A DNA stretch of 51,853 bases, taken from Trueperaceae bacterium (GTDB lineage: Bacteria; Deinococcota; Deinococci; Deinococcales; Trueperaceae). The notes beneath the pieces are model-generated. The model had not been told where the DNA came from, made no database searches, and saw only the letters and a program-made list of their open reading frames with translations. Shown here one piece after another: positions 2,249 to 39,710 of this stretch. The stretch is from assembly GCA_011389865.1 (NCBI GenBank), contig JAABTL010000004.1:1-51853 (forward strand), in the 5' to 3' direction. Made by a program: the position numbers and the translations under genes. Numbering within the stretch: the stretch's first letter is position 1; every line of letters starts with the position of its first letter.

Positions 2249-3397
2249 TCAGCGCAGTGCGTTCAGAGCGGATTGCGCCTCTTCGAACGCCGGATCCAAC
2301 TCGAGCGCACGCTCGAACGCCCGCCTGGCGGCCTCGTCGTCGCCGGCGGCGTTGCGGGCGACGTAGGCGCGGCCCAGATGGAAGTGGGCCTCCGCCGATT
2401 CCGGGGGCAGCAGGGCGCCCTGCTGGGCGCGCCGCAGGGCGTCCTCGATGCGGCCCTGCTCGAGGTAGGCGCGCGCGAGGTAGGTGTACAGCGGCGGCGC
2501 GAACACGGCGCCGTCGAGGGTGAGGGCGAGTTCGAAGTGCGGGATCGAGCCCGCGACGTCGCCGCACTCGAACAGCACGATCGCCAGCTGCGAGACCGCC
2601 GACAGCGAGGCCGGTGCCAGGCTCACGGCCTGCGACAGCTCGTACTCGGCGCCGGAGCAGTCACCGAGACGGAAACTCACGTGGCCGAGGTTGTTGTGCG
2701 CCGACGCGCTGGCGGGGTCGAGGACGACCGCCCGGCGGAAGGCCGTCTGCGCGAGCTCCAGTTGGTCCTGGTCGCGGTAGGCCCGCCCGAGGTTGACCTG
2801 GATCACGGAGCGCTCGCGCTCGGTCAGTTTGCTGGCCGCGGCGAGTTCGACGGCCCGCTCGAGGGCGGCGCGCGCCTGGTCGAGGTCGCCGGCCTCGTAG
2901 TAGATGATGCCCTTGGTGTTCTTCACGGTGGCGTCGTCGGGTGCGATCCCCTCGGCCCGCTCGAGCACCTCGATCGCGTCCGCCAGGCGGCTGGCGAACG
3001 TGAGCGGGTCGGTCACGTACTGGTTCTGGTACGCCAGCGCCAGCTGCACGTAGCCGGGTACGTAACTCGCGTCGGCGTCGATGGCCTCGCGGAAGGTCTC
3101 CACGGCGCTACCGAAGGCTCCCTGGCAAGCGAGGGCACGGCCCTTGCCCACCATGGCCACGACGTTCTCGGGGTCGCGCTTGAGCGCCTCTTGGTAGAAG
3201 TACTGCGACAGCGCGCAGTCGCCCTGGGCGTAGTAGAAGCTGCCGTCCCGCAGCCACGTGGAGACGTCCTCGGTCGACTCCTGGCTCCAGGCATGTCCGG
3301 TCAGCAGCAGCGCGCCCAGCACCACGACCGCGAGTCGGCCGAGGCCGAAGCCCGCGCGTGAGCGCCGAACGATTGAGCGATGCAAGGTGGTGTTCAA
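2249..3397 (-). CDS. Secreted or membrane-anchored TPR-repeat protein
   Basis: A 382-residue protein of unknown partner. The first ~34 residues form a signal peptide or anchor (RSRAGFGLGRLAVVVLGALL, then LTGHAWSQ), followed by at least seven tetratricopeptide units such as DGSFYYAQGDCALSQYFYQE, AVAMVGKGRA-like segments, NLGRAYRDQDQLELAQTAFR, NNLGHVSFRLGDCSGAEYEL and HFHLGRAYVARN. TPR solenoids bind proteins, so an envelope scaffold is likely. The start is TTG at 3397 with GGAGGA 4 nt ahead; the frame remains open far upstream, but that stretch overlaps the divergent ctaA gene and has no coding character. Confidence 0.8.
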   Translation of the reverse strand: MNTTLHRSIVRRSRAGFGLGRLAVVVLGALLLTGHAWSQESTEDVSTWLRDGSFYYAQGDCALSQYFYQEALKRDPENVVAMVGKGRALACQGAFGSAVETFREAIDADASYVPGYVQLALAYQNQYVTDPLTFASRLADAIEVLERAEGIAPDDATVKNTKGIIYYEAGDLDQARAALERAVELAAASKLTERERSVIQVNLGRAYRDQDQLELAQTAFRRAVVLDPASASAHNNLGHVSFRLGDCSGAEYELSQAVSLAPASLSAVSQLAIVLFECGDVAGSIPHFELALTLDGAVFAPPLYTYLARAYLEQGRIEDALRRAQQGALLPPESAEAHFHLGRAYVARNAAGDDEAARRAFERALELDPAFEEAQSALNALR

Positions 3398-7613: not shown

Positions 7614-8306
7614 TCAGGATGTCCGTTCGAGGCCGTCGCACACGATGCGCGGGTCGCCACCGAGGTCGCCCTGGAGGCGCAGTCGGGCGCGCGGCAGGGG
7701 GCGCACGGCCGGGCCGCTGACGGCGCGGCCGGCGCGCAGCGGGTCGAACACGCTGAAGTGGCAGGCGCAGGTGAGCGACGGTCGATCGCTGCGGTGGTTG
7801 AAGGCGAAGGCCACCGCCTCGACGTCGCGGTTGAGTTCGACGATGCACGACAGGTGCGTGCAGACCCGAGAGAAGGCGACGAGCTGCACGGCGACGCCGA
7901 CGTCGAGCCCGCCGGGGACCGGCGCGGGCACGCGGACCGCGACGCAGGGCACACCCGCCGCCATGAAGTCAACGCCGTCCCACACCTCGGAGAAGGCCGA
8001 CAGCGGGGCGACCTCGGCGTCGGTGACGGGATCGAAGACGGGGTTGGGAGCGGGGGCGTCCTTGGCGAAGTGGATGGCGTACGCCTGCCACACACCGTAG
8101 GCCGCCCCGCCGGCGGCCGCCAGCACCGGCAGGCGCCACAGCCAGGTGGACAGCGCGCGGCGACCGTGGTCGACCGCCTGCGGGGCGGGCGTGGAGGGCT
8201 CGTCGGTGGGCGTCCCGGTGGTCGGTCGCTCGGCCGCCGCCGCGGCTTCCTCGTGCGCGGCCGAGCCGTCCACGGACGCGGGGTGGGCTGGCGCTTCTCG
8301 GTCCAT
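7614..8306 (-). CDS. Rieske [2Fe-2S] protein
   Basis: Electron-transfer protein of the cytochrome bc/b6f type, anchored by one span near residues 57-76. The 230 residues start with a ~45-residue Ala/Pro/Thr-rich tail. Cluster ligands are intact: C149/H151 in CTHLSC and C180 or C182 with H183 in CACH, with the extra cysteines for the stabilising disulfide. Ser replaces the usual Gly in box I and HFS replaces HGS in box II, which may alter redox potential. It follows the TPR-cytochrome c gene by 5 nt at the end of the ccm operon; no cytochrome b gene is present in the window. Confidence 0.85.
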   Translation of the reverse strand: MDREAPAHPASVDGSAAHEEAAAAAERPTTGTPTDEPSTPAPQAVDHGRRALSTWLWRLPVLAAAGGAAYGVWQAYAIHFAKDAPAPNPVFDPVTDAEVAPLSAFSEVWDGVDFMAAGVPCVAVRVPAPVPGGLDVGVAVQLVAFSRVCTHLSCIVELNRDVEAVAFAFNHRSDRPSLTCACHFSVFDPLRAGRAVSGPAVRPLPRARLRLQGDLGGDPRIVCDGLERTS

Positions 8307-8311
8307 CGGCC

Positions 8312-9991
8312 TCAGCGCGGCGTGGCCAACTCCTGCCCGACCCAGCGCACGAGGACCTCGATCTCGGCCTCGGACAGCAGCGCGCCGAACCCGGGCATGA
8401 TGCCGCGCCCGAAGCGGATGGTGCTGCGGACGTTGGCCTCGTTGGCGGCGCGGGCGCTGCCGGCCAGCCGCACGCCGGTGCCGCCCTGTCCCTCGGCCCC
8501 GTGGCAGACCACGCAGTGACGGGCGTACAGCTCCGCGCCGACCTCGATGAGCAGGGCCGGCTCGCTCAGGGCCGTGAGCGCGCGCTCGGCCGCGGCCTCC
8601 GCCGCGTCCGCCTCCGGCACCTCCGCCGAGACCGGCGACCCGCTCGCGCCAGCGTCCGTGGACCCGTCGGCGGCCTCCGCGCTCGCCGCGTCCAGGCGCA
8701 GGCGCGCGCCCTCGATCAGGCCCGTCACGCGCCCGGCGTCCTCGATCCCCACGACCTCGACGTGCGCCTCCCAGGCGCGGATGGCGCTCTCGTCGTCGCC
8801 GAGCACGGCGTAGGCGTTCCCCAGGAAGAGGCTGGCCTGCGGCTCCAGCTGCGTGAGGCCGCCGGCGGCGCTGGCGGCCCGCTCCAGCAGGCCGATGGCG
8901 TCGTCGGTGCGCCCGCGGGTGAACAGCAGCTGGCCGATGCGGCTGAGCGCCGTCGGCTCGAACGCGTCGTGTTCGGAGAGGACCTCGAAGTAGATCTCGA
9001 CCGCCGGGTCGTTGGCGCCGGAGGTCCAGAAGACGTCGGCCAGCGCCATCAGGTTGTCGCGGTCGCGCACTTCGGCGACGGCGTTCGCCGCCGGACCGAT
9101 CGCCTGGACGAGCGCCAGGCGCGCCTCGGCGTCGGGATCGCCGGCACCCTCGGGGGTGGCGAGGTAGGCGCCGAACGCTTCGATGGAGGCGTCGAGCTCG
9201 CCCTGGGCGAACGACAACTCGCCGATCGCGTAGAGCGTCTCGGGGTCGGTCGGGTCGACCGCCCTCGCCTCGCGCAGCAGTTCGAGGGCCGCCGGCAGGT
9301 CGCGCTGCAGGACGAGCAGCGCCAGCCGCTTGTAGGCGATCGGAGGCGCGCCCACGCTGGTGCCGTCGTCGCTGGCGAGGGCGACGACGCGGCGGTAGGT
9401 CTCCTCGGCCCCCTCGGCGTCGGCCAGTTCCCAGTAGGCGTCGCCGAGTGCCATGAGGTTGGCGGCGTTCGGGTCGCGGTCCGCGGCCCGGATGAGGTCG
9501 CGCAGCGCCTCGGCGGTGCTCAGCTCGTCGGCGAAGAAGGTCGTGACCGTGCCCTGGCCGACGCGCGGCAGCACGAACGAACCGAGCGCGGCGGTGGTGA
9601 CGGCGACCACGCCCAGGAGCGCGAGCGCGCCGATGGGCAGGCGCCGCCCCGTGGCGGGCCGGGCGTCGGCGGCGCGGGCGCGGGCCTCGGCGGCGCTGTC
9701 GGCGTCGCCTGGCGCCTCGCTGCGGGCCCGTTCCAGCGCCTTGAGGACGGTGGCGGCCTTCGACTCGTAGCGCGCGCGGAGCTCGTCCCGCCGGTCCGCG
9801 GGGAGGTCGAGCCGGCCGTCGAGCTCGCGGATCGCCCGCAGCAGCGAGTCGCGTTCCTCCTCGAGATCGACCAGCACGGGATCGCGCTCGTCGGGCAGGG
9901 GATCGACGAGCGAGCGGCGGCCGGTGAGCGGCGCGGCCGCGTAGGCGACGGTGATCAGGGCGAGCAGGACGATGAGGATGGCGGTGAGCAC
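8312..9991 (-). CDS. CcmI-like TPR protein fused to a cytochrome c domain
   Basis: A 559-residue fusion. The N-terminus has a membrane span (VLTAILIVLLALITVAYAA), a charged cytoplasmic segment (LEEERDSLLRAIRELDGRLD, as in CcmI), then a second span (IGALALLGVVAVTTAALGSF) and several TPR units (for example NAANLMALGDAYWELADAEG). The last ~75 residues are a class I cytochrome c: CVVCH at about 493-497 and the axial Met in GIMPGFG near 532. CcmI normally holds apocytochrome c for heme attachment; here it carries its own heme site. Start GTG 9991 is weakly supported by GAGGT; the gene lies 20 nt after ccmH. Confidence 0.82.
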   Translation of the reverse strand: MLTAILIVLLALITVAYAAAPLTGRRSLVDPLPDERDPVLVDLEEERDSLLRAIRELDGRLDLPADRRDELRARYESKAATVLKALERARSEAPGDADSAAEARARAADARPATGRRLPIGALALLGVVAVTTAALGSFVLPRVGQGTVTTFFADELSTAEALRDLIRAADRDPNAANLMALGDAYWELADAEGAEETYRRVVALASDDGTSVGAPPIAYKRLALLVLQRDLPAALELLREARAVDPTDPETLYAIGELSFAQGELDASIEAFGAYLATPEGAGDPDAEARLALVQAIGPAANAVAEVRDRDNLMALADVFWTSGANDPAVEIYFEVLSEHDAFEPTALSRIGQLLFTRGRTDDAIGLLERAASAAGGLTQLEPQASLFLGNAYAVLGDDESAIRAWEAHVEVVGIEDAGRVTGLIEGARLRLDAASAEAADGSTDAGASGSPVSAEVPEADAAEAAAERALTALSEPALLIEVGAELYARHCVVCHGAEGQGGTGVRLAGSARAANEANVRSTIRFGRGIMPGFGALLSEAEIEVLVRWVGQELATPR

Positions 9992-10011: not shown

Positions 10012-10533
10012 TCAGGGGCGCGGGGCGGGGGCGTGGGGGGCGGCTTCGTCGCTGGCGGAGGGCTCGGTATCCGCGCCGGAGAGCGCGGCGCGGACGCGCG
10101 CCAGGTCCTCTGCGGCGACCGGCGCCACCCCCTCTTCGGCGGCGGCGCGCCAACGGCGCACCAGCATGACCAGCCCGCCACCGGCGACCAGGACGGCCGC
10201 GACGGGCAGCAGCCACACGAGCAGGAGCACGCCGCGACGCGGCGGGGAGAGCAGGATCCAGTCACCGTAGCGGTCCTGGAAGAAGGCCAGGATCTCGGCG
10301 CGGGTGCGGCCCTCGTCGAGTTGCTCCTGGATGATCTGGCGCATCTCGCGGGCGATGGACGCGTTGGACTCGCCCACCGACTCCGCGACGCAGGTCGGGC
10401 AGCGCAACTCGTTGCCGATCTCGAAGACCCGCGGGTCGAGCATGATGTCCTGCGCGAGCGAGACGCCGAGCAGGAGAGCGGCGACGCCGGCGGCGATGGC
10501 GGCGAGGCGCAGGGCGCGGGGGAGGGATCTCAT
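10012..10533 (-). CDS. ccmH: Cytochrome c maturation protein CcmH
   Basis: Membrane thiol-oxidoreductase that keeps apocytochrome c CXXCH cysteines reduced before heme attachment. 173 residues: signal segment (residues 9-27), the family motif LRCPTC with Cys45 and Cys48, the helical bundle (REMRQIIQEQLDEGRTRAEI, FFQDRYGDWILLSPP) and a C-terminal membrane span followed by an Ala/Pro tail. Its ATG overlaps the ccmG stop (ATGA). Confidence 0.95.
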   Translation of the reverse strand: MRSLPRALRLAAIAAGVAALLLGVSLAQDIMLDPRVFEIGNELRCPTCVAESVGESNASIAREMRQIIQEQLDEGRTRAEILAFFQDRYGDWILLSPPRRGVLLLVWLLPVAAVLVAGGGLVMLVRRWRAAAEEGVAPVAAEDLARVRAALSGADTEPSASDEAAPHAPAPRP

Positions 10534-11065
10534 GGCAGCAGCGCCTCCACCCGTTCGGTGAGCACGGCCGTGTCGACGGGCCCGACGTGCTTGTAGGCGA
10601 GGGTGCCGTCGGCGCGCACGAAGAAGGTCTCGGGGACGCCGAAGAGGCCGTAGGCGATCGAGACGCGCGAGTCGTCGTCGATGACGTTGGGGAAGGTGAA
10701 GTCGAAGCGTTCGATGAAGGCGCGGCCGGCGGCGCGGGCGTCGCGCTCCTGGGTCTGGATGCCGATGAACAGCACCTCGTCGCCGTAGCGCCGCTGGGCG
10801 GCCTCGAGGTGCGGCGCCTCCGTGTAGCAGGGACCACACCAGGACGCCCAGAAGTTGATGACCAGCGGCCGGCCCGCGTGGTCGGCGAGGTCGAGGCGCG
10901 GCCCGAACGCGGCGAGGTAGCGCTCGTAGACCGGCAGGTCGAAGTTCGGCACCTGCCGGTTCAGCAGGTTGGACGGCACGTTCCGGTCGGGTGCGCCGCG
11001 CAGCAGGCCGAAGAGGAACAGGGCGGTCAGGCCGCCGACGATGGCGACGACGACGGCGACGCGCT

Positions 11066-11069
<4 letters not shown>
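10530..11069 (-). CDS. ccmG: Periplasmic thioredoxin-like CcmG/DsbE
   Basis: Membrane-tethered thioredoxin-fold reductant for cytochrome c maturation. 179 residues: N-terminal anchor (2-23), then FWASWCGPC with Cys78 and Cys81, and the cis-proline loop GVPETFF. Start GTG at 11069 overlaps the ccmF stop (GTGA). It would receive electrons from CcdA, encoded at the head of the operon, and pass them to CcmH. Confidence 0.95.
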
Positions 11070-13066
<1,997 letters not shown>

Positions 13067-13091: not shown

Positions 13092-13517
13092 TCACTTCAG
13101 CGACTCCCGCAGCAGCTCGAGGTCGATGTGTTCGCCCTCGGCGACGTACACCTCGGTGTGCTTGACCAGCACGTTGTCGGAGACGAAGGTGCCGTCGTCG
13201 AAGCGGCCCTCGACGACCACCCCGGTGCTCTCCTTGAAGAGCTCCGGAGGCGCGCCGCTGTGCCGCACCGGGTAGGCGACCAGCCCGTCGGTGACGAGGA
13301 AGGTCAGCTGCAGTTCGCGTTCGTCGAAGGCGATCGTGCCCGGCGTGACGATCCCGCCGAGACGGATCCGGCGGCCGTCGTACTGGGCGGGATCGGCGGC
13401 GTGCTCGTTGGGCAGGATGAAGTACACGAGTGAGGTCGACAGGGCCTGGAAGATCATGAAGCCCGCGACGGCCAGCACGCCGACGCCGGCGAGGCCGTAC
13501 AGCCATTTGCGGTTCAC
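13092..13517 (-). CDS. ccmE: Heme chaperone CcmE
   Basis: Carries heme covalently from CcmC to the CcmF/H ligase. 141 residues: one N-terminal span (about 6-24), an OB-fold, and the heme-binding histidine His120 in LVKHTEVY (family KHDExY). Start GTG 13517 overlaps the stop of the small ccmD gene (GTGA) and is preceded by a G-rich ribosome site. Confidence 0.94.
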   Translation of the reverse strand: MNRKWLYGLAGVGVLAVAGFMIFQALSTSLVYFILPNEHAADPAQYDGRRIRLGGIVTPGTIAFDERELQLTFLVTDGLVAYPVRHSGAPPELFKESTGVVVEGRFDDGTFVSDNVLVKHTEVYVAEGEHIDLELLRESLK

Positions 13518-13681
13518 GTTCCACCCCCCGCGGCCTGCCGCTCGATCACGCGGCGGGCGGCGTCGTCGGCGAGCAGCTTGCGGCGCCGCCAGCCGAGGTA
13601 CGTCAGGTAAGCGCCGTAGGCGAGCACCAGCTCGAGCCAGGCGATCGTCACCCAGGTCCATTGCGTCCAGCCATCAAACAC
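13514..13681 (-). CDS. ccmD: CcmD-like small membrane protein
   Basis: A 55-residue gene between ccmC and ccmE, easily missed because of its size. It begins VFDGWTQWTWVTIAWLELVL, a single transmembrane helix, and continues into a basic cytoplasmic segment (WRRRKLLADDAARRVIERQ), the layout of CcmD, which helps release heme-loaded CcmE from CcmABC. The GTG start overlaps the ccmC stop by 8 nt and has a perfect AAGGAGGT 5 nt upstream; its TGA overlaps the ccmE start. Position, size and topology make the call strong although the sequence is poorly conserved in this family. Confidence 0.85.
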   Translation of the reverse strand: MFDGWTQWTWVTIAWLELVLAYGAYLTYLGWRRRKLLADDAARRVIERQAAGGGT

Positions 13682-14417
13682 GGACGACCTCCTTGCCCAC
13701 GGGGGTTTGGCGCGTCGCGGCCAGCGAGCGCTCCTCTTCGAGCGCCGCCTCCACGTGGCCGAGGCGCGCCCGATCGATCATGAAGCCGAGGTAGATCAAC
13801 CCCGCCACGACGGTGTTGAACAGCAGCACCGCCAGCATCGTCGAGTCCATCGTCACGCCCGAGCCGTCCAGCGCGACGCTCTTCGCCGGGTGCAGGGTGC
13901 GGAACCACTCGGCGGCGAGGTAGTTGAACGGCAGGCTGGCGGCGGCCACGATCGCCACCACCGCCGACACGCGGCCGCGGCGCACGGGGTCGTCGATGAG
14001 GCCGCGCACGATGAAGTACCCGACCATCAGGGCCACCATGATCGCGGTCAGCGTGAGCTTGGCGTCCCACGTCCAGAAGGTGTTCAGCGTCGGCCGGGAG
14101 TAGGTCATGCCGCCGATGATCGTGAGGCTGGCGAAGAAGAGCCCCATCTCGCCCGACGCCACGGCGAGCACGTCGTCGCGCCGATTGCCGCGCCACAGGT
14201 AGAGCGCGCCGAACACGGCGGTGAGGCCGACCGCCACGAAGGCGATCCAGGCGACGGAGACGTGGGCGTACATGATGCGGATCAGGTCGCCTTGGGTGAC
14301 GTCGCGCGGGCTGAACACCAGCCCGAACGTGGCGGCGGCGAGGAACAGCAGCAGGGTGATCCCCAGGTAGATGCGCAGCCACGGTGGGCGGCGCAGCCGA
14401 GCGGCAGCGTCGATCAT
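13674..14417 (-). CDS. ccmC: Heme export/delivery protein CcmC
   Basis: Six-span membrane protein that loads heme onto CcmE. 247 residues, usual for the family. The WWD-type heme motif appears as FWTWDAKLT, with flanking His residues in YAHVSVAW and RTLHPAKS. ATG at 14417; GGAGGAG lies about 12 nt upstream. A 65-nt gap separates it from ccmB and contains a G/C-rich palindrome near 14435-14450 that could attenuate read-through. Confidence 0.94.
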   Translation of the reverse strand: MIDAAARLRRPPWLRIYLGITLLLFLAAATFGLVFSPRDVTQGDLIRIMYAHVSVAWIAFVAVGLTAVFGALYLWRGNRRDDVLAVASGEMGLFFASLTIIGGMTYSRPTLNTFWTWDAKLTLTAIMVALMVGYFIVRGLIDDPVRRGRVSAVVAIVAAASLPFNYLAAEWFRTLHPAKSVALDGSGVTMDSTMLAVLLFNTVVAGLIYLGFMIDRARLGHVEAALEEERSLAATRQTPVGKEVVRV

Positions 14418-14482: not shown

Positions 14483-15202
14483 TCAGGCCTCCACCACGAA
14501 GCGGAACAGCACCAGGCAGACGACGGCGTACACCAGGTCGAAACCCACGAGCAATCTTAGCCATGCCCAAGCCAGATCGAGGTCGCCCGATCCCACGAGC
14601 GCGTTGCTGGCACGCACGGCGGCCAGCAGGATCGGCACCACGACGGGGAACATCAGCACCGGCAGCAGCGACTCGCGCGCGCGCAGGTTGGCGGTCAGGC
14701 CGGCGTAGAAGACCGCGATCAGGGCGAAGCCGAGGGTTCCGGCGGCGATCACCCCGAGCAGCACCGTCACGACCAGCGCCGGCGCCGTCTCGCCGTCGCC
14801 GCCGGGGGCGGCGCCACCCCCGATGTCGGCGCCGTACAGGCCGCCGGCGAGCGGCAGCAGCACGAAGCCGAGCGCGGTCATCAAACCCCAGTTCGCCAGC
14901 AGCTTGCCGAGGTAGACCGCGGCGCGCGGCACGGGCCAGGCGAGCAGCGCCTCGAGCGCGCCGTCCTCGAGGTCGGCCTGCCAGCTCTGGGCGGCCGAGA
15001 TCACCCCGGCGAAGGCCAGCGCCACCCACAGGGCGCCCATCGCCCCCTCGCGCATCAGCAGCGGGTTCTCGCCGAAGGCGAAGGCCAGCACGCCCAGCGT
15101 CACGGCGGAGAAGAACACCGTCGCCACCGTGACGGCCTTGGAGCGCGACTCCTGCAGCAGGTCCTTGCGCGCGATCCACAGGACGGCGTGGAGGTCGTTC
15201 AT
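14483..15202 (-). CDS. ccmB: ABC transporter permease CcmB
   Basis: Integral membrane subunit of the CcmABCD complex. 239 residues with about six spans, starting MNDLHAVLWIARKDLLQESR and containing AAQSWQADLEDGALEALLAW, both typical of CcmB. ATG at 15202 overlaps the ccmA stop (ATGA). With CcmA it uses ATP hydrolysis to release holo-CcmE. Confidence 0.94.
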   Translation of the reverse strand: MNDLHAVLWIARKDLLQESRSKAVTVATVFFSAVTLGVLAFAFGENPLLMREGAMGALWVALAFAGVISAAQSWQADLEDGALEALLAWPVPRAAVYLGKLLANWGLMTALGFVLLPLAGGLYGADIGGGAAPGGDGETAPALVVTVLLGVIAAGTLGFALIAVFYAGLTANLRARESLLPVLMFPVVVPILLAAVRASNALVGSGDLDLAWAWLRLLVGFDLVYAVVCLVLFRFVVEA

Positions 15203-15858
15203 GCGTCGCCCTCCCCGTCCACGGGTGCGCTCGTGGTCGCGGTCACCGCCGTGGCGCGTGTCGGCCGCGCCATCACGCGCAGGTGGCCGCCCGCGATCTC
15301 GATGACCGCGTCGGCGGTGGCCAGTGACCGGGGGAGGTCGTGCGAGGCGACCAGCACCGTGCGGCCGTCGTCGCGGGCCGCGGCGATCAGGGCGTCGACG
15401 AGCTCCTGACCCTGCTCGTCGAGCGCTGCGTACGGCTCGTCGAGCAGCCAGACGGGCGCGTCGGCCAGCGTCAGGCGCGCCAGCGCCAGGCGCTTGCGCA
15501 TGCCGCTGGAGTAGGCGCGCACGAGGTGGTCCGCCGCCGCGATCAGGCCCACGCGTTCCAGGGCGCGGTCGACGGCCTCCGGGTCCTCGCCGCCGCCCCG
15601 CAGCGCCACGCCGAGGCGCAGGTTCTCGCGGCCGCTCAGGGCGCCGTACGCGCCGCCGTACACCGGCAGCGTCGCCACGTGCGTCCGCACGTCGTGGGCC
15701 TGGCGCACGACGTCGTGGCCCAGCACCCGAGCGTGGCCGCGCACCGGCCGCAGGCGCGTGGCGAGCAGCCGCAGCAGCGTCGTCTTGCCGGCCCCGTTGG
15801 GGCCGTGCAGGGCGACCACCCGACCGACCGCGACGTCGAGGTCGATGCCCGCGAGCAC
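15199..15858 (-). CDS. ccmA: ABC transporter ATP-binding protein CcmA (start problematic)
   Basis: ATPase of CcmABCD. Walker A GPNGAGKTT, signature YSSGMRKRLALARL (a variant of LSGGQ), Walker B VWLLDEP and the switch His in VASHDLP are clear. The first usable in-frame start is GTG 15858, but coding similarity continues upstream as VELRGLVHGYGGPP, which includes the aromatic A-loop tyrosine needed for ATP binding. Upstream codons back to the in-frame TGA at 16000-16002 contain no ATG, GTG or TTG. An ATG at 15997, 2 nt after the ccdA stop, is in a different frame; a 1-nt indel in the intervening 18-bp repeats would join them. The span given is the minimum. Confidence 0.85.
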   Translation of the reverse strand: MLAGIDLDVAVGRVVALHGPNGAGKTTLLRLLATRLRPVRGHARVLGHDVVRQAHDVRTHVATLPVYGGAYGALSGRENLRLGVALRGGGEDPEAVDRALERVGLIAAADHLVRAYSSGMRKRLALARLTLADAPVWLLDEPYAALDEQGQELVDALIAAARDDGRTVLVASHDLPRSLATADAVIEIAGGHLRVMARPTRATAVTATTSAPVDGEGDA

Positions 15859-15999: not shown

Positions 16000-16704
16000 T
16001 CACAGCCGGCTCCACAGCCACTCGGGCGTCCAGCGGATCAGCACGGCGTTGAGGGCCGTGAAGGTGCCGGTCACCAGCATGACGCCGACGACCAAGAGCA
16101 GGGCACCCGCGCCGCGTTCGATCCACGGCAGCCACGGCCGCAGGCCCCTGCTCATGCGGGTGAAGGGTTCGATCGCCAGGGCGGCGAGCATGAAGGGGAC
16201 CGCGAGGCCCGCCGCGTACGCGGTCAGCAGCCCGACGCCGCTGGCCAGCGTGCCGCTCGCGCCGGCCGCCGCCAGGATCGAGCCGAGCACGGGTCCGATG
16301 CACGGGGTCCAGCCGAACGCGAAGGCCATGCCCAACAGCGTGGCGCCCCAGGGGCGCTGCGTGTCGGTCGCCGAGCCGACGTTGCGGCGCGTGTCGCGGT
16401 AGAGGAACGGGACCCTGATGACCCCCAGCATCACCAGGCCGAAGACGATGACGAGCACGCCGCCCACGATCGTCAGCAGCTCCTGCTGCGCGCGCAGGAC
16501 GCTGCCGAGGGCGCTGGCGGAGGCGCCCATGGCGATGAAGACGAGGGAGAAGCCGAGCACGAAGAGGCCGGCGTTGCGCAGCAGCAGGGGCCGGCTGGCG
16601 CCGCTGCCGCCGACGTACGCCAGGTAGGTGGGCACCAGGGGCAACACGCAGGGCGACAGGAACGACAGGATGCCGGCGAGGAAGGCGATGGGTGGGGTCG
16701 GCAT
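16000..16704 (-). CDS. ccdA: Thiol-disulfide transporter CcdA
   Basis: Six-span membrane protein that passes electrons from cytoplasmic thioredoxin to periplasmic CcmG. 234 residues; the two redox cysteines sit in SPCVLPL (Cys19) and GWTPCIGP (Cys135), in the expected symmetric positions. First gene of the ccm operon. ATG 16704 has no Shine-Dalgarno sequence; a CAAACT box lies 7 nt upstream, so the transcript may be leaderless. It diverges from the ABC-transporter operon across 109 bp. Confidence 0.93.
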   Translation of the reverse strand: MPTPPIAFLAGILSFLSPCVLPLVPTYLAYVGGSGASRPLLLRNAGLFVLGFSLVFIAMGASASALGSVLRAQQELLTIVGGVLVIVFGLVMLGVIRVPFLYRDTRRNVGSATDTQRPWGATLLGMAFAFGWTPCIGPVLGSILAAAGASGTLASGVGLLTAYAAGLAVPFMLAALAIEPFTRMSRGLRPWLPWIERGAGALLLVVGVMLVTGTFTALNAVLIRWTPEWLWSRL

Positions 16705-16734
16705 TCGGGACAGTTTGGCACGCGTCGATGAGTG

Positions 16735-16763
16735 TGGACGGGGCGGCGGTCCCGCGGTAGCAT
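16735..16763 (+). promoter_or_regulatory. Candidate promoter of the NitT/TauT-type operon
   Basis: TGGACG (16735-16740, one mismatch from TTGACG) and TAGCAT (16758-16763) are separated by 17 bp, about 50 nt before the binding-protein gene. Confidence 0.45.
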
Positions 16764-16813
16764 CCGCGCACCCCGAAGGCGGCCGCGGGCTGCCTCCCGA
16801 GCAGGAGGATCGC

Positions 16814-17839
16814 ATGCGCATTGTCCGTTCGCTCGTCCCCCTCGTGATCGCCCTGGCGCTGGCCGGTGTGGCGTCCGCGCAGAGCGCGGTCGAGCCGCTC
16901 TCGCCGCGCGAGACCGTGCGCGTCGCCTACGTGCCGATCAGCAAGTTCGCCACCCTCTACGTGGCGGCGGACCGCGGCCTGTTCGACGCCTACGGGCTCG
17001 ACATGGAGATCAACCGCGTGGCCTCCGGCACGGAGGCGATCGCCTTCCTCGAGCAGGGCCAGATCGACGTCGGCGGCATCGCCATCGTCGTCTCGGTGTG
17101 GAACGGCTGGGCGCAGGGCCTCGACCTGCGGGTCATCGCCCCCGGAGCCCTCGAGCCCTTCGAGGACAGCCCCACCAAGCTCATGCTGCGCACCGACCTG
17201 GCCGACGAGATCGGCGACATCGCCGACCTGCGCGGTCGCACCGTCGCGGTCGCCGGCGGGCCCGGCTCCGGGGGCGAGTACCTGGCGGCCAAGGCGCTCG
17301 AGCGCGGCGGCCTGACGATCTTCGACGTCAACCTGGTCAACGTCGCGAACCCCGACATCCCGCTGTCGTTCGAGTCGGGCGCGATCGACGCCGCCATCCT
17401 CGGCTCGCCCTTCGCCGAGCAGGCCGAGGCGAGCGGCGGCGCCGTGCCCTTCGCGGAGGACCTGGCCCCGGGCCTGATGACCGTCGCCTTCGTCGGCTCG
17501 GGACGGTTCGTGCAGGAGCGTCCCGAGGTCGCGCAGCGTTTCGCGCTGGCGCTGCTCGAGGCCTCTCGGCTCATGCAGGGCGATGATTTCCTGTCGCCAG
17601 CGAACCTCGATGCGTACCTGACGTACGTGCCGAACGCCACGGTCGAGAGTCTACGAGCTGACACACGGCTGATCTTCGACCCGGACCAGCAGATCCCCGT
17701 CGACGGCCTCGCCGACGTCGAGCGCACCCACCGCGAGAACGGCCGCACCGCCTACGAGACCCCGATCGACCTGGGCGCGGTCGTCGACCCCTCGTTCATG
17801 GACTGGGCGCTGGAGCAGCTGGGCGCGTACGGGGAGTGA
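16814..17839 (+). CDS. ABC transporter substrate-binding protein, NitT/TauT (NMT1/THI5-like) type
   Basis: Periplasmic binding protein of 341 residues. Signal peptide MRIVRSLVPLVIALALAG then VASAQS; no lipobox cysteine. The mature part has the SsuA/THI5 pattern: VRVAYVPISKFATLYVAADR, FDAYGLDMEI, GQIDVGGIA, LRGRTVAVAGGPGSGGEYLA. ATG 16814 is preceded by GCAGGAGG. Members bind nitrate, sulfonates, pyrimidine thiamin precursors or other small compounds; nothing here decides among them. Followed by its ATPase and permease. Confidence 0.87.
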   Translation: MRIVRSLVPLVIALALAGVASAQSAVEPLSPRETVRVAYVPISKFATLYVAADRGLFDAYGLDMEINRVASGTEAIAFLEQGQIDVGGIAIVVSVWNGWAQGLDLRVIAPGALEPFEDSPTKLMLRTDLADEIGDIADLRGRTVAVAGGPGSGGEYLAAKALERGGLTIFDVNLVNVANPDIPLSFESGAIDAAILGSPFAEQAEASGGAVPFAEDLAPGLMTVAFVGSGRFVQERPEVAQRFALALLEASRLMQGDDFLSPANLDAYLTYVPNATVESLRADTRLIFDPDQQIPVDGLADVERTHRENGRTAYETPIDLGAVVDPSFMDWALEQLGAYGE

Positions 17840-17944
17840 TCTCCGCGCGGTGACGCCTGGGGCGCCCGCAGCGGGCGGCGTCCGGCGCGCCGCAACGTGC
17901 CGCGCCCGCGGCGTGCCGCGCCCGCGCGGTACGCTCGCGCGAGC

Positions 17945-18727
17945 ATGAGCGCCAAGATCGTCGCCCGTTCCGCCGAGAAGCGCTTCCAGACCCGCGCGGG
18001 CTGGATGACCGCCCTCCGCGACTTCGATCTCGAGGTCGCGGAGGGCGAGTTCTTGTGCCTCGTCGGCCCGTCGGGCTGCGGCAAGTCGACCTTCCTGCGC
18101 ATCCTCGCCGGGCTCGACCACGCCACCGGCGGCGAGGTGCGCATCGACCCGGGTCCCGACCCGCGGCAGCCGCTGGCCAACGTCGTGTTCCAGGAGTACG
18201 CCGTGTTCCCCTGGAAGACGGTGCTGCACAACGTCGCGTTCGGCCTCGAGATGCGCGGCGTGGGCCGCAGGGAGCGTGAGGCGACCGCCCACCGTTGGAT
18301 CGACAAGGTGGCGCTCACGCGCTTCGTCGACTACTACCCGGCGCAGCTTTCCGGCGGCATGAAGCAGCGGGTGTCGATCGCCCGCGCGCTCGCCAACGAT
18401 CCCCAGGTCCTGCTGATGGACGAGCCGCTGGGCGCGCTCGACGCGCAGACCCGGGCGGTGCTGCAGGAGGAGCTGCTGCAGCTGTGGGAGGAGTCGCGCA
18501 AGACCGTGCTCTACGTGACCCACTCGATCGACGAGGCGGTCTTCCTGGGCGACCGGGTGGTCGTCATGACCGCCCACCCGGGGACGGTGAAGACCGTGAT
18601 CGACGTCGACCTGCCGCGCCCGCGCGACCTGTCGGTGATGGCCACGCCGGAGTTCGCCGCGCTGACGGGTGCGGTCTGGGACGCCCTGCGCGACGAGGTG
18701 CGGCGGGCGATGGCGGAGCAGGCATGA
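17945..18727 (+). CDS. ABC transporter ATP-binding protein, NitT/TauT type
   Basis: 260-residue cytoplasmic ATPase. Walker A GPSGCGKST, Q-loop VFQEYAVFPW, signature LSGGMKQR, Walker B VLLMDEP and switch His VTHSIDEAVFLGDR are all intact and closely match the nitrate/sulfonate/taurine subfamily (SsuB/TauB). The chosen ATG 17945 has TACGCT (17930-17935) just upstream and no Shine-Dalgarno sequence. The GC-rich 105-bp gap before it holds no other gene. Confidence 0.9.
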   Translation: MSAKIVARSAEKRFQTRAGWMTALRDFDLEVAEGEFLCLVGPSGCGKSTFLRILAGLDHATGGEVRIDPGPDPRQPLANVVFQEYAVFPWKTVLHNVAFGLEMRGVGRREREATAHRWIDKVALTRFVDYYPAQLSGGMKQRVSIARALANDPQVLLMDEPLGALDAQTRAVLQEELLQLWEESRKTVLYVTHSIDEAVFLGDRVVVMTAHPGTVKTVIDVDLPRPRDLSVMATPEFAALTGAVWDALRDEVRRAMAEQA

Positions 18728-34886: not shown

Positions 34887-35237
34887 ATGCAGCCGTTCGG
34901 GCTCGACCTCGACTACGTGGCGGTCGTCGCGCTCTTCTGCGTCGGCCTCTACATGCTGGTCGCCAAGAGCAACCTGCTCAAGAAGCTGTTGGGGCTCAAC
35001 GTCATGGAGACGTCGGTGTTCGCGTTCATCGTCACCGCCGGCATGGTCGAGGGCGGTGACCCGCCGATCATGGTCGCCGGAACCAGCGCCCCCTACGCCA
35101 GCCCAATCCCGCACGCGATGGTGCTGACCGGCATCGTCGTGGCCGTCAGCGTGACCGCCGTCGCGCTGGCGCTGATCGTGCAGATCCACGCCCACTTCGG
35201 CACGATCGAGATCGACGAACTCAAGGAACTGCCGTGA
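34887..35237 (+). CDS. mrpC: Na+/H+ antiporter subunit MrpC (MbhG/NuoK-like)
   Basis: 116 residues, three spans, homologous to NuoK: VALFCVGLYMLVAKSNLLKK, LLGLNVMETSVFAFIVTAGM and the family loop SAPYASPIPHAMVLTGIVVA. The membrane Glu in NVMETSV is conserved. ATG 34887 directly follows the mrpB stop. Confidence 0.92.
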   Translation: MQPFGLDLDYVAVVALFCVGLYMLVAKSNLLKKLLGLNVMETSVFAFIVTAGMVEGGDPPIMVAGTSAPYASPIPHAMVLTGIVVAVSVTAVALALIVQIHAHFGTIEIDELKELP

Positions 35238-36727
35238 CCGGCCCCTGGGCCGAGGCGCTGCCGTGGGCGATCGTCCTGCCCCTCGTCGGCGCCGCGCTCA
35301 CGCCGGCGGTCGCGGTCCGCCATCCCCGGGTGTCCGGGTTCTGGGCCTGGGGCGTGCTGTTGGTCACCGCGGTCCTCACCGCCGGTCTCGTGTCCGAACT
35401 CGTCGCTCGCGGCCCGTTCTCCTACGGGCTCGGCGGTTGGGCTGCCTCCTACGGCATCGAGTTGCGCTTCGACCACTTCAGCGCCTGGGTGCTGCCGCTG
35501 GTCGTGCTGTTCGTCGTCATCGTGCCGTTCTCGTGGCGTTACCTGGACCACGTGATGCCGGACGAGCGGCGACCGCCGTTCTACGCGCTGCTGCTGCTGA
35601 ACGCCGGGGGCATGATCGGCTTCTGCGTCACCGGCGACCTGTTCAACCTGTTCGTATTCACCGAGGTCGTGTCGCTGTCCAGCTACGCCCTGGTGGCGGT
35701 CGGCGGACGCGGCCTGGCCGCCTTCGCGGCCCTCAAGTACCTCTTCATCGGCGCCGTGTCGTCGCTCCTCATGCTCTTCGCGACGGCGCAGCTGTTCGTT
35801 CTGAGCGGCAGCCTCAACATGGCCGACGTCTCCCTGCGGCTCGGCGAGATCGGTGGCGGCACCGCGGTGATGGTGGCGTTCGCGGCCTACGCGGTCTCGT
35901 TCATGGTCAAGGCGGCGATGTTCCCGGTCCACGTCTGGCTGCCAGACGCCCACGCGATCGCCCCCAGTCCCGTCAGCGCGGTGTTGTCGGGCATGGTGGT
36001 CAAGGTCGGCATCGTCGGGATGCTGCGGATCTACCAGATCTACTTCGGCGCCGAGGTGCTCGAGCTCGGGGCGTTCAACCTGGCGCTGGTGTGGCTGGGC
36101 GCGATCTCGATCGTGATGGGCGCGTTCTTCGCCATCTTCCAGGACGACATCAAGCTCATGCTCGCCTACTCGACGATCTCGAACATCGGCTACATCGTGC
36201 TCGGCCTCGGGCTGGCGTCGCCCTACGCGGTGATCGGCGCCGCGGTGCACGTGTTCAACCACGCCCTGATCAAGGCGACCCTCTTCCTCGCCGCCGGCTC
36301 GATCATCCATCAGACCGGCTTCCGCACGCTCTCGGACCTGCGCGGCGTCGCCCGCACGATGCCGCAGACGTCGGCCGCGATGGCCATCGGCGCCGTGTCG
36401 ATCGTCGGGCTGCCGCCCACCGCGGGTTTCGTGTGCAAGTGGTACATCGCGCTCGGCGCGTTCGAGGCGAACCAGGCACCGTTCGGCTTCGCGCTCGTGT
36501 TCGGCGCGCTGTTCATCTTCATCTACTACATCCGGATGCTCAACGCCTTCTACTTCCAGCCACCGGTGCACGCTTCGGTCGCGCAGGCGAGCGAGACGCC
36601 CTGGTCGATGCGCGGGCCGGTCGTACTGCTCGCGTCCCTGTGCCTGATCCTCGGGGTGCTCGGCGGCATCCCGCTGACCTTCGTCGAGCCGGCGGTCCTC
36701 GACCTGCTGCCGTTCTGGGGGCAGTGA
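35234..36727 (+). CDS. mrpD: Antiporter-like subunit 1 (MrpD/MbhH type)
   Basis: 497 residues with about 14 spans, homologous to NuoM/NuoN. The proton-path residues are visible: Glu in FTEVVSLSSYALVAV, Lys in FMVKAAMFPVHVWLPDAHAI, Lys in LSGMVVKVGIVGMLRIYQ, and Lys in TAGFVCKWYIALGAF. GTG 35234 overlaps the mrpC stop. This is the best candidate for MrpD proper. Confidence 0.9.
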   Translation: MTGPWAEALPWAIVLPLVGAALTPAVAVRHPRVSGFWAWGVLLVTAVLTAGLVSELVARGPFSYGLGGWAASYGIELRFDHFSAWVLPLVVLFVVIVPFSWRYLDHVMPDERRPPFYALLLLNAGGMIGFCVTGDLFNLFVFTEVVSLSSYALVAVGGRGLAAFAALKYLFIGAVSSLLMLFATAQLFVLSGSLNMADVSLRLGEIGGGTAVMVAFAAYAVSFMVKAAMFPVHVWLPDAHAIAPSPVSAVLSGMVVKVGIVGMLRIYQIYFGAEVLELGAFNLALVWLGAISIVMGAFFAIFQDDIKLMLAYSTISNIGYIVLGLGLASPYAVIGAAVHVFNHALIKATLFLAAGSIIHQTGFRTLSDLRGVARTMPQTSAAMAIGAVSIVGLPPTAGFVCKWYIALGAFEANQAPFGFALVFGALFIFIYYIRMLNAFYFQPPVHASVAQASETPWSMRGPVVLLASLCLILGVLGGIPLTFVEPAVLDLLPFWGQ

Positions 36728-36728
36728 C

Positions 36729-38234
36729 GTGGAGGTCGTCGACGTCCGGCCGATCCTGGCGCCGTTCGTGTCGTTCCTCTGCGCCGGCCTCGTGTTCGGC
36801 TTCGGCCGCAGCATCTTCTGGCGCCGCTTCTTCACCTTCCTGGCGGCGTTCATCAAGATGGCGCTGGTGCTCTCCATGTTGCCCGGGACGCTGCAGGGCG
36901 TCGTGTACGTCTACCAGTTCGTCGAGTTCACCCCCGGCATCGGCATCGGCTTCCGGGCGGACGCCTACGGCATGTTCTTCTCGCTCGTCTCGTCGACGCT
37001 GTGGGTGTTCACCACGATCTACGCGATCGGCTACATGCAGGGCGACAGGGACCGCGTGCGCTTCTTCGGGTTCTTCGCCCTGTGCGTCTCCACCACGGTC
37101 GGGGTCGCGTTCGCCGAGAACCTGCTGACCTTCTTCCTGTTCTACGAGACGCTGACGATCTGCACCTACCCGCTGGTGGTGCACGCCGAGACGCCCGAGG
37201 CGCTGCGTGCGGGCCGCATCTACCTGACCTACACGCTGATCGGCGGCGGCTTCGCGCTGGTGGGCGCGGTGATGACGCTCAACGCCGCCGGCACGCTGAC
37301 CTTCGCCGCCCCCGGCATCCTCGGCATGGAGAGCGGCGTCGCGACGCTGGCGGTCATCTTCCTCTGCCTGATCATCGGCTTCGGGGTCAAGGCAGCGATC
37401 ATGCCGCTCCACGGCTGGCTGCCGATCGCGATGGTCGCGCCCACGCCGGTCAGCGCGCTGCTGCACGCCGTCGCGGTGGTGAAGGTCGGCGCCTTCGGGG
37501 TCACCCGCGTCATCTACAACGTGTTCGGCGTCGAGCTCTTGCGCGAGCTCGGTTTCGCCACACCGCTGGCCCTGCTCGCGGGCTTCACGATCGTGGCCGC
37601 CTCGACGATCGCCCTCACGCAGGACCACCTCAAGCGACGCCTCGCCTACTCGACGATCAGCCAGCTCTCGTACATCGTCCTCGGGGCCGCGCTGCTCACG
37701 CCGCTGGCGGCGACGGCGGCCGTCCTGCACATCGCCAACCAGGCGTTCGCCAAGATCACCATGTTCTTCGTGGTCGGGGCCATCACCCGCACCACGGGCA
37801 AGAAGTACGTCAGCGAGATCGACGGCATCGGCGCGCGCCTGCCCTGGAGCATGGCGGCCTTCTCGATCGCGGCGCTGTCGTTCGTGGGGGTGCCGCTGAC
37901 CGCCGGCTTCATCACGAAGTGGTACCTCGCGCTCGGCGCGCTGGAGGCCGACGCCTGGTGGTACGTGCTGGTGCTCATCACCAGCTCGCTGCTCAACGCC
38001 GGGTACTTCTTCCCGATCCTGCACCGGGCCTACTTCCGGCAGGCCAAGGAGCCCTGGCCGCCGCTGGAGCCGGGACGCCGGTTCGAGACCCCGAAGACGC
38101 TGCTGTTCCCGATCGTCATCTGCGCGGCGTACGTGCTGCTGCTGGGTGTCACCGCCGAGGTGCCCGGGATGCCGTTCTCGGTGGCTCAGGTGGCGGTCGA
38201 TGGCTTCTTCGCGCCGGTGGGCGGTGGGCCGTGA
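36729..38234 (+). CDS. Antiporter-like subunit 2 (NuoL/M/MrpD type)
   Basis: 501 residues, about 14 spans. Glu in FFLFYETLTICTYPLVVH, Lys in FGVKAAIMPLHGWLPIA, Lys in LHAVAVVKVGAFGVTRVI and Lys in TAGFITKWYLALGAL complete the proton-path set. The LHA-x-x-VVKVG form resembles the MrpA/NuoL signature. GTG 36729 is 1 nt after the previous stop. Confidence 0.88.
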   Translation: MEVVDVRPILAPFVSFLCAGLVFGFGRSIFWRRFFTFLAAFIKMALVLSMLPGTLQGVVYVYQFVEFTPGIGIGFRADAYGMFFSLVSSTLWVFTTIYAIGYMQGDRDRVRFFGFFALCVSTTVGVAFAENLLTFFLFYETLTICTYPLVVHAETPEALRAGRIYLTYTLIGGGFALVGAVMTLNAAGTLTFAAPGILGMESGVATLAVIFLCLIIGFGVKAAIMPLHGWLPIAMVAPTPVSALLHAVAVVKVGAFGVTRVIYNVFGVELLRELGFATPLALLAGFTIVAASTIALTQDHLKRRLAYSTISQLSYIVLGAALLTPLAATAAVLHIANQAFAKITMFFVVGAITRTTGKKYVSEIDGIGARLPWSMAAFSIAALSFVGVPLTAGFITKWYLALGALEADAWWYVLVLITSSLLNAGYFFPILHRAYFRQAKEPWPPLEPGRRFETPKTLLFPIVICAAYVLLLGVTAEVPGMPFSVAQVAVDGFFAPVGGGP

Positions 38235-39706
38235 GCTCCTGGTGGCCGGGCGTGGCCGTCGCGTTGCCCCTCGTCGGCGTCGCCGCGGTCTCCTTCGGCC
38301 GCCTGACCGAGCGCTGGCGCATCGCCGCGCTGGTGGTGCCCGCCGTCGCCGCCCTCGCGGTCGCCCTGCTGATCGTCGGCGACGTCCTCGCCGGCCGCAC
38401 GCCGGAGCTGTTCGTGCTCCGCATGACGCCGACGCTGTGGCTGGTGCTGCGGGTCGACGCGCCCGGCGCGCTCTACGGCGCGACGGTGGCGGCCCTGGGC
38501 CTGCTGGCCCTGGTGTACTCGTTCGGCTACGTCCAGCGCGGGCCGCGCTGGTCTCGCTACTTCGCCTTCCTCATGGCCTCGTTCACGTGCACCATGGGCG
38601 TCGCGTACGCGGGCAACCTGCTCACCTTCCTGATCTTCTACGAGGCGTTCTCGGTGCTGACCTACGCGCTCGTGGTCCACGAGCAGACGCCCGAGGCGAT
38701 CCGGGCGGGCGCGAAGTACATCGCCTACATCCTCGTCGGTGGGAGCCTGGTGCTCGCCGGCATCCTGCTGACCTACTTCCTGGCGGGCGACCTGACGTTC
38801 GTGGCCGGCGGCTTCCTCGCCGCGGACGCTGCGCGCGGGCAGCTCCTCGCCGCCTTCTGGTGCTTCGTCGTGGGCTTCGGCGTCAAGGCCGCCCTGGTGC
38901 CGCTGCACGGCTGGGTCCCGGATGCCCATCCGGCCGCGCCGGCGCCGTTCTCGGCGGTCCTCTCGGGCGTGATGGTCGCGGCCGGCGCCTTCGGCATCAT
39001 GCGGGTGGCCCTGGACGTGTACGGCGCCCCGCTGGTCCGCGCGCTGGGCGTCGCGCCCTGGCTGACCGTCATCGCATCCGTCACCGTGCTGCTGGGCGCG
39101 CTGCTGGCGATCGGTCAGGACGACCTGAAGCGGAGGCTGGCCTACTCGACGATCAGCCAGATGGGCTACCTGACGTTGGCGGTCTCGCTGCTCGGCTCCG
39201 GGGTGATGGCCGGGGCGCTGGTGCACCTCGTCCACCACGCGTTCCTCAAGGGCACGCTGTTCTTCTGTGCGGGGCTGTGGATCCACTCCAGCGGCGTCCG
39301 TCGGGTGCGCGATCTGCGCGGCATGGGGGCCCGCATGCCGCTGACGGCCGCTGCCTTCACGCTGGCTGCCCTCGGCATGATCGGCGTGCCACCGCTCTCG
39401 GGCTTCGTCAGCAAGTGGTGGCTGGGCGTGGGCATGCTCCAGGTGGACGCGGCGATCGGTCTCGCGGTGCTGCTGGCCGGCGCCCTCCTCGCCGCCGCCT
39501 ACCTTCTTCCCGTGGTGTACGCGGCCTACTTCGCGCCGGCCGGACCGATCGCCGGGCACGCCGGTCGCGAGGCGCCGGCGACGATGCTCGCCCCGACGCT
39601 GGTCGCCGCGGCCCTGACGATCGTCTTCGGGCTCGGCTCGCACTACGGCGGCTTCCCGCTGCAGCTCGCGCAGGCCGCGGTGGCCGCCTGGTTCGGTGGA
39701 GGTTGA
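38231..39706 (+). CDS. Antiporter-like subunit 3 (NuoM/MrpD type), one lysine missing
   Basis: 491 residues, about 14 spans. FLIFYEAFSVLTYALVVHEQ keeps the Glu and FGVKAALVPLHGWVPDAHPA the first Lys, but the next helix reads LSGVMVAAGAFGIMRVALD, with Ala where the others have Lys. LSGFVSKWWLGVGML keeps the third Lys. GTG 38231 overlaps the previous stop (GTGA). It is close in sequence to subunit 2 (both share the LVVH-x-x-TPEA loop), suggesting duplication. Confidence 0.88.
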   Translation: MSSWWPGVAVALPLVGVAAVSFGRLTERWRIAALVVPAVAALAVALLIVGDVLAGRTPELFVLRMTPTLWLVLRVDAPGALYGATVAALGLLALVYSFGYVQRGPRWSRYFAFLMASFTCTMGVAYAGNLLTFLIFYEAFSVLTYALVVHEQTPEAIRAGAKYIAYILVGGSLVLAGILLTYFLAGDLTFVAGGFLAADAARGQLLAAFWCFVVGFGVKAALVPLHGWVPDAHPAAPAPFSAVLSGVMVAAGAFGIMRVALDVYGAPLVRALGVAPWLTVIASVTVLLGALLAIGQDDLKRRLAYSTISQMGYLTLAVSLLGSGVMAGALVHLVHHAFLKGTLFFCAGLWIHSSGVRRVRDLRGMGARMPLTAAAFTLAALGMIGVPPLSGFVSKWWLGVGMLQVDAAIGLAVLLAGALLAAAYLLPVVYAAYFAPAGPIAGHAGREAPATMLAPTLVAAALTIVFGLGSHYGGFPLQLAQAAVAAWFGGG

Positions 39707-39710
39707 CACG

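Follow-up and report, generated by a model that had tools for sequence, protein, structure and literature searches.

A CcmI-type cytochrome c maturation factor fused to a class I cytochrome c domain in the ccm operon of the Deinococcota

The gene at positions 8312–9991 on the minus strand of the window, the whole 51,853-nucleotide stretch of Trueperaceae DNA analyzed here, encodes a 559-residue protein that joins a membrane-anchored TPR part related to CcmI to a C-terminal class I cytochrome c domain. Its identity as a CcmI-cytochrome fusion is well supported, and the redox role that we infer for its cytochrome domain together with the Rieske protein encoded by the next gene is discussed below. 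Fusions involving CcmI are known already, an example being E. coli CcmH (PMC3601427), and class I cytochromes are likewise known in combination with many partners. A CcmI that has kept a cytochrome through a whole phylum, together with a Rieske partner, is new within the scope of the open-access literature: no description of the fusion turned up in the open-access papers that we searched, a coverage that leaves most subscription journals outside.

Architecture of the protein and organization of its operon

Translation starts from a GTG codon at 9991 and ends with a stop codon at 8312–8314, exactly at the coordinates of the initial annotation, the strand being minus for the gene and for all its segments described below. 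From the N to the C terminus, the protein is composed of a transmembrane helix, a charged helical hairpin, a second transmembrane helix, a series of TPR repeats, and a class I cytochrome c domain. The two-span, charged-loop, TPR layout first read from the sequence is thus confirmed by the hydrophobic spans, by Pfam, and by an AlphaFold2 model. The model, run on a 24-sequence family alignment, has a mean pLDDT of 87.6 and a pTM of 0.56, the latter being low, which means that the model does not fix how the domains are arranged relative to one another. The first transmembrane helix (residues 2–23; 9923–9988) appears both in the sequence and as a helix in the model. It is followed by the hairpin (residues 38–92; 9716–9880), predicted to be cytoplasmic, which is modeled as two helices at 38–59 and 65–92 and lies in the region of the profile match to the CcmI N-terminal module. 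The second transmembrane segment is a hydrophobic stretch (residues 118–142; 9566–9640) modeled as a helix at 120–136. The loop between the two hydrophobic spans carries 20 Lys/Arg and 22 Asp/Glu in 96 residues. Because Arg-Arg pairs adjoin both membrane helices, the positive-inside rule would make this loop cytoplasmic, with the TPR and cytochrome parts on the outer side of the membrane; this topology and the presence of a cytochrome domain both point to a periplasmic TPR domain.

The putative periplasmic TPR array covers residues 154–441 in the model (8669–9532), with the Pfam TPR matches at roughly 178–424. Its first half (about residues 150–312; 9056–9544) repeats its second half (hhalign E 7e-25), an internal duplication that is limited to the window's family, the other families possessing a single module. 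A Foldseek search returned generic TPR structures only. An Ala/Glu-rich linker (residues 442–477; 8561–8668), poorly conserved and modeled with low confidence at 447–458 (pLDDT about 46), connects the TPR array to the cytochrome domain; its length is variable, and it is nearly absent outside the window's family. The cytochrome domain itself (residues 478–555; 8327–8560) is a small helical domain in the model and matches Cytochrome_CBB3 (PF13442) at residues 483–551 with an E value of 9.6e-13. It carries the haem-binding motif CVVCH at residues 493–497 (8501–8515) and a GIMPGF segment whose Met532-Pro533 pair (8393–8398), invariant in our alignment A2, supplies the predicted distal haem ligand, Met532. 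This agrees with the complete class I cytochrome c that the initial annotation recognized at the end of the protein.

A complete ccdA-ccmABC(D)EFGH operon ends with the fusion gene and the Rieske gene, which follow ccmH in this order; 20 bases separate ccmH from the fusion, and 5 bases separate the fusion from the start of the Rieske gene. Upstream on the same strand, in the order of the operon, are ccdA, for a thiol-disulfide membrane reductant carrier (16000–16704; PF02683, E 5e-17), the ABC ATPase gene ccmA (15199–15858; PF00005 and position), ccmB (14483–15202; PF03379, E 1.7e-32), ccmC (13674–14417; PF01578, E 8e-18), a small single-span open reading frame in the place of ccmD (13514–13681), assigned from position and sequence only and having no Pfam match, the haem chaperone gene ccmE (13092–13517; PF03100, E 1.7e-26), the haem lyase gene ccmF (11066–13066; PF16327, E 3e-57, and PF01578), ccmG, for a thioredoxin-like protein (10530–11069; PF00578, E 5e-18), and ccmH (10012–10533; PF03918, E 5e-31). 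The last gene of the operon (7614–8306, minus strand) encodes a Rieske 2Fe-2S protein with an N-terminal RR motif and a membrane anchor. It matches PF00355 above the cut-off, and its C-T-H-x-x-C ... C-x-C-H motif is intact in all the family members aligned; its best NCBIfam match is TIGR02694, below the cut-off. Elsewhere in the window, genes for an NMT1-type substrate-binding protein and then an ABC ATPase (16628–18727, plus strand) are divergent from the ccm operon, and three clustered Proton_antipo_M proteins (35234–41849, plus strand) resemble an Mrp-type cation/proton antiporter cluster. A second TPR protein (2249–3361, minus strand), with a signal-type N terminus and a PF23914 match above the cut-off, is built of generic TPRs; it lies outside the ccm operon and adjoins ctaA/ctaB/SURF1.

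Relationship of the membrane-TPR part to CcmI

The curated CcmI model TIGR03142 gives no match to the window protein. On the N terminus of orthologs, the same model reaches 29.9 bits in genome G001, for a cut-off of 29.3, 28 bits in G005, and 26.2 bits in G007, all three being sister-family orthologs, with weaker matches at the same gene in G010 to G013, in G026, and in G099 of the window's own family, E values in others being 1e-3 to 1e-5; the trimmed protein L095 scores 29.1 bits against the cut-off of 29.3. Profile-profile comparison by hhalign, with a set of proteobacterial CcmI sequences drawn from plasmid records as the reference, aligns the membrane module with an E value of 6.9e-7, or 6.6e-8 when only the other families are used; adding the TPR part lowers the E value to 1.3e-15. 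By comparison, the best value among column shuffles is 0.06, and the best among unrelated membrane proteins of the same loci (CcmE, CcmG, CcmH, Rieske, SURF1, CtaB, and CcdA) is 0.008. A TPR domain after the second membrane helix is present according to Pfam, AlphaFold2, and PF23914, the CcmH/CycH TPR profile, which matches 22 of the 28 family members.

We searched the genome for another ccmI and found none. Since the hhalign matches exceed all the controls, PF23914 recognizes most of the family, and the genome holds no second ccmI that the search could detect, the membrane and TPR part is, on sequence grounds, well supported as a diverged CcmI. The initial annotation had called it CcmI-like and had named as decisive against this view a TPR part unrelated to CcmI together with a separate ccmI elsewhere; operon position, topology, the profile-profile matches, and sister-family scores near or at the TIGR03142 cut-off all bear the relationship out. 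The TPR and membrane modules are about as conserved as the rest of the protein.

When compared with the proteobacterial CcmI/CycH proteins (TIGR03142), the fusion shares the position after ccmH, the two membrane helices with a charged loop, the periplasmic TPR, and profile similarity over both parts. It differs by its much diverged sequence, by the class I cytochrome c that replaces the usual C-terminal region, by the Rieske gene that universally accompanies it, and, in the window's family, by the duplicated TPR. CcmI-type TPR modules in cytochrome-maturation gene fusions are also shared with E. coli CcmH, itself a CcmH-CcmI fusion (PMC3601427), and with NrfG; E. coli CcmH, however, joins CcmI to the thiol oxidoreductase CcmH, whereas here CcmI is joined to a cytochrome, the machine's own product. 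The cytochrome domain has the CXXCH, the distal Met-Pro, and the small helical fold of CcoP and other class I cytochrome c domains (PF13442) but is attached to a maturation factor and not to part of an oxidase. Similarly, the Rieske neighbor shares the C-x-H-x2-C ... C-x-C-H motif and the RR-type signal anchor with the arsenite oxidase small subunit and with bc1-type Rieske proteins, from which it differs by its location at the end of a ccm operon, with neither an oxidase nor a cytochrome b.

Distribution of the fusion and of the Rieske gene

The window's family is represented by 39 genomes, and a search with the single protein found the gene in 38 of them. The initial annotation had described the fusion from one sequence; when the same fusion was sought with a 28-sequence profile in 111 Deinococcota genomes from five families, the TPR and cytochrome parts were found together in 101 genomes representing all five families, 33 from the window's family and 68 from the other four. 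Chance and artefacts of sequencing, frame, or assembly are excluded, as the same fused gene occurs in over 100 genomes. In the loci read in the other families, a single open frame encodes both parts, preceded by ccmH and followed by the Rieske gene. One of the 68, G069, has the two parts in two different open frames (C31:70242–70809), perhaps by a frameshift or as a split gene. At the corresponding locus of Thermus sp. JCM 17653 (L101), the N terminus of the fusion runs over several frames, probably because of sequencing errors. Families f1, f3, and f4 form clades whether the gene tree is that of the CcmI part or that of the cytochrome, which indicates an old fusion, mostly vertically inherited. 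CXXCH and Met-Pro are kept in 49 of the 51 aligned members, with Met-Pro 38–41 residues past the first cysteine of CXXCH (48 in one member), and the two exceptions belong to one genus. As for occurrence beyond the phylum, a contig scan of the whole collection gave, among the matches listed, ordinary cytochromes only, plus one Thermus locus, and the plasmid records gave no match to the fusion. Plasmid-borne CcmH-like matches in Deinococcus were set aside, being located in metal or thiol loci without CcmI.

Most of the exceptions within the phylum are incomplete assemblies. The fusion is cut by contig ends in three further genomes (G076, G077, and G080) and was not recovered in four others (G003, G014, G020, and G021), each assembled in hundreds of contigs. 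G098 gives a weak, generic profile match only; CcmF, the fusion, and the Rieske protein are all missing from it. Since this genome carries 11 PF13442 cytochrome domains, and ResB of System II is absent, a gap in the assembly is more probable than a loss of the ccm operon. We accordingly rejected the joint absence in G098 as proof that the fusion and the Rieske gene are linked. As this is the only good-quality genome without CcmF, the fusion, and the Rieske gene, the survey holds no clean negative contrast, and the rearranged genomes described below are better evidence. The genus of G108, a one-contig genome, and G109 is a different case, as it has truly lost the cytochrome domain and has a plain tail in its place. 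This loss, with the CcmI part and the Rieske gene kept, indicates that the cytochrome is a separable module that some lineages do not need for CcmI action. At both loci (L047 and L052), the C terminus of the protein is a tail rich in Ala, Pro, and Thr, and the Rieske gene follows immediately; this amounts to a natural deletion mutant.

The Rieske profile found the Rieske gene in 107 of the 111 genomes, the four without it being G098 and three that are incomplete or broken by contig ends. No conserved gene was seen downstream of it in the loci compared. In G009 (L184 and L185) the operon is split, with ccdA-ccmABCE-Rieske at one place and ccmFGH and the fusion at another, and in the genus that includes G016 to G022 the fusion and the Rieske gene are both retained but lie on different contigs. 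The Rieske gene has moved away from the ccm genes in genus g26 (L186, L187, and L188), where, at L187 and L188, it adjoins TRAP-type-like transporter genes. The only other Rieske-type match in the window genome is of a different type, a small ferredoxin-like protein beside sufBCD-like genes.

Neither PF00033 nor PF13631 matches any protein of the window genome, PF13631 is likewise without a match in the complete relatives G092 and G108, and no cytochrome b was seen in the conserved operon. Thus, in these organisms the Rieske protein is not a bc1 subunit, and a role of the fusion as the cytochrome c1 of a bc1 complex is rejected for the window genome. A separate cytochrome b is present in families f4 and f5. 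The initial annotation had suggested that the tethered cytochrome could be a redox partner of the Rieske protein: the genetic association of the two stands phylum-wide, while electron transfer between them is not demonstrated.

Possible redox role in haem ligation

We give about an even chance to the proposal that the protein is the CcmI of the phylum equipped with a permanent class I cytochrome c, a redox module that would work with the Rieske protein in cytochrome c maturation. The membrane module and the TPR domain of CcmI work with CcmF/CcmH and bind apocytochrome (PMC3884852, PMC3601427). By homology with proteobacterial CcmI, the fusion would be the apocytochrome-chaperone subunit of the CcmF-CcmH-CcmI haem-ligation complex, its two-helix module sitting with CcmF/CcmH and its TPR array holding apocytochrome c in the periplasm. 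The cytochrome domain would itself receive its haem from the Ccm machine and would then serve as a fixed electron carrier, presumably exchanging electrons with the Rieske protein of the adjacent gene. A Rieske centre is normally of high potential, so that the pair would more likely take electrons out of the machinery than supply the low-potential haem b of CcmF. Ligation needs reduced haem, and the literature names no known electron donor for this haem b, whose potential is −147 mV (PMC10663686). Most likely, the pair would remove electrons from the haem on CcmE/CcmF, or from the quinol feeding the CcmF haem b, and would hand these electrons on to soluble cytochrome c and the oxidases. The genus of G108 and G109 counts against this proposal, since the absence of the cytochrome domain beside a retained CcmI and Rieske protein makes the redox module dispensable there. 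The failure of TIGR03142 to match the window protein itself also weighs against it.

In another reading, close to the tethered substrate and built-in sensor proposed by the initial annotation, the TPR groove is filled by the protein's own cytochrome domain, or by the C-terminal helix of that domain, until incoming apocytochrome displaces it; the domain would then act as a built-in test substrate or maturation sensor, with the Rieske protein as a bystander or a second client. The recognition of apocytochrome C-terminal helices reported for CcmI TPR domains (PMC3884852) and the variable length of the linker would suit such an arrangement, which we nevertheless regard as unlikely: the linker nearly disappears in the other families, the full haem site and the Met ligand are kept, as an electron carrier would keep them, and the universal retention of the Rieske gene, even if unlinked, is of no need to a sensor. 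We attach a similarly low probability to a plain respiratory cytochrome, anchored in the membrane, that pairs with the Rieske protein and uses the CcmI-derived part as a mere anchor and spacer. Rieske and cytochrome c together are common in respiration, and both the separate cytochrome b of f4 and f5 and the dispensability of CcmI in E. coli (PMC3601427), which makes a repurposing conceivable, would agree with this idea; yet the gene is always in the ccm operon at the ccmI position, its TPR and membrane module show about the same conservation as the remainder, the cytochrome is gone in one genus where the CcmI part persists, the window genome is without a bc1 cytochrome b, and after the split in G009 the fusion remains with ccmFGH. 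Finally, the loss of a stop codon in the ancestor of the phylum could have joined a downstream cytochrome gene to ccmI, leaving a neutral or weakly useful tethered cytochrome, as the one genus that lost this domain without losing its neighbors might suggest. This, too, appears improbable: more than 100 genomes retain the fusion, its haem ligands are invariant, and the same three families come out as clades in the tree of either part, all of which argues for selection on the linked form.

A more speculative version of the redox proposal, which we consider very improbable, would unite the tethered cytochrome and the Rieske protein with the haem b of CcmF in a bc1-like electron-bifurcating unit. 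One electron from the oxidation of menaquinol would then run downhill by way of the Rieske protein and the CcmI-borne cytochrome, reaching the oxidases, and would thereby drive the second electron onto the low-potential CcmF haem, which would reduce haem for ligation; if true, this would supply the missing reductant of the CcmF haem b in the phylum. Throughout the phylum, the System I genes come with genes for two electron carriers, the CcmI-fused cytochrome c and the Rieske protein. Such an arrangement suggests that cytochrome maturation has an electron path of its own and bears on how System I reduces and oxidizes haem during ligation.

The phylum contains Thermus and Deinococcus, both with working genetics, so that the redox question is testable, and Thermus is also the source of the CcmF crystal structure (PMC10746174). 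In D. radiodurans, where the gene order corresponds to that seen here, the genes DR0342 (Rieske-type), DR0344 (ccmH), DR0346 (ccmF), and DR0347 (ccmE) were lowered together in a regulator mutant (PMC4171365); DR0343, between the Rieske gene and ccmH, should be the fusion, by its position. A transposon screen for radiosensitivity in the same species recovered insertions in both DR0342 and DR0347 (PMC4401554).
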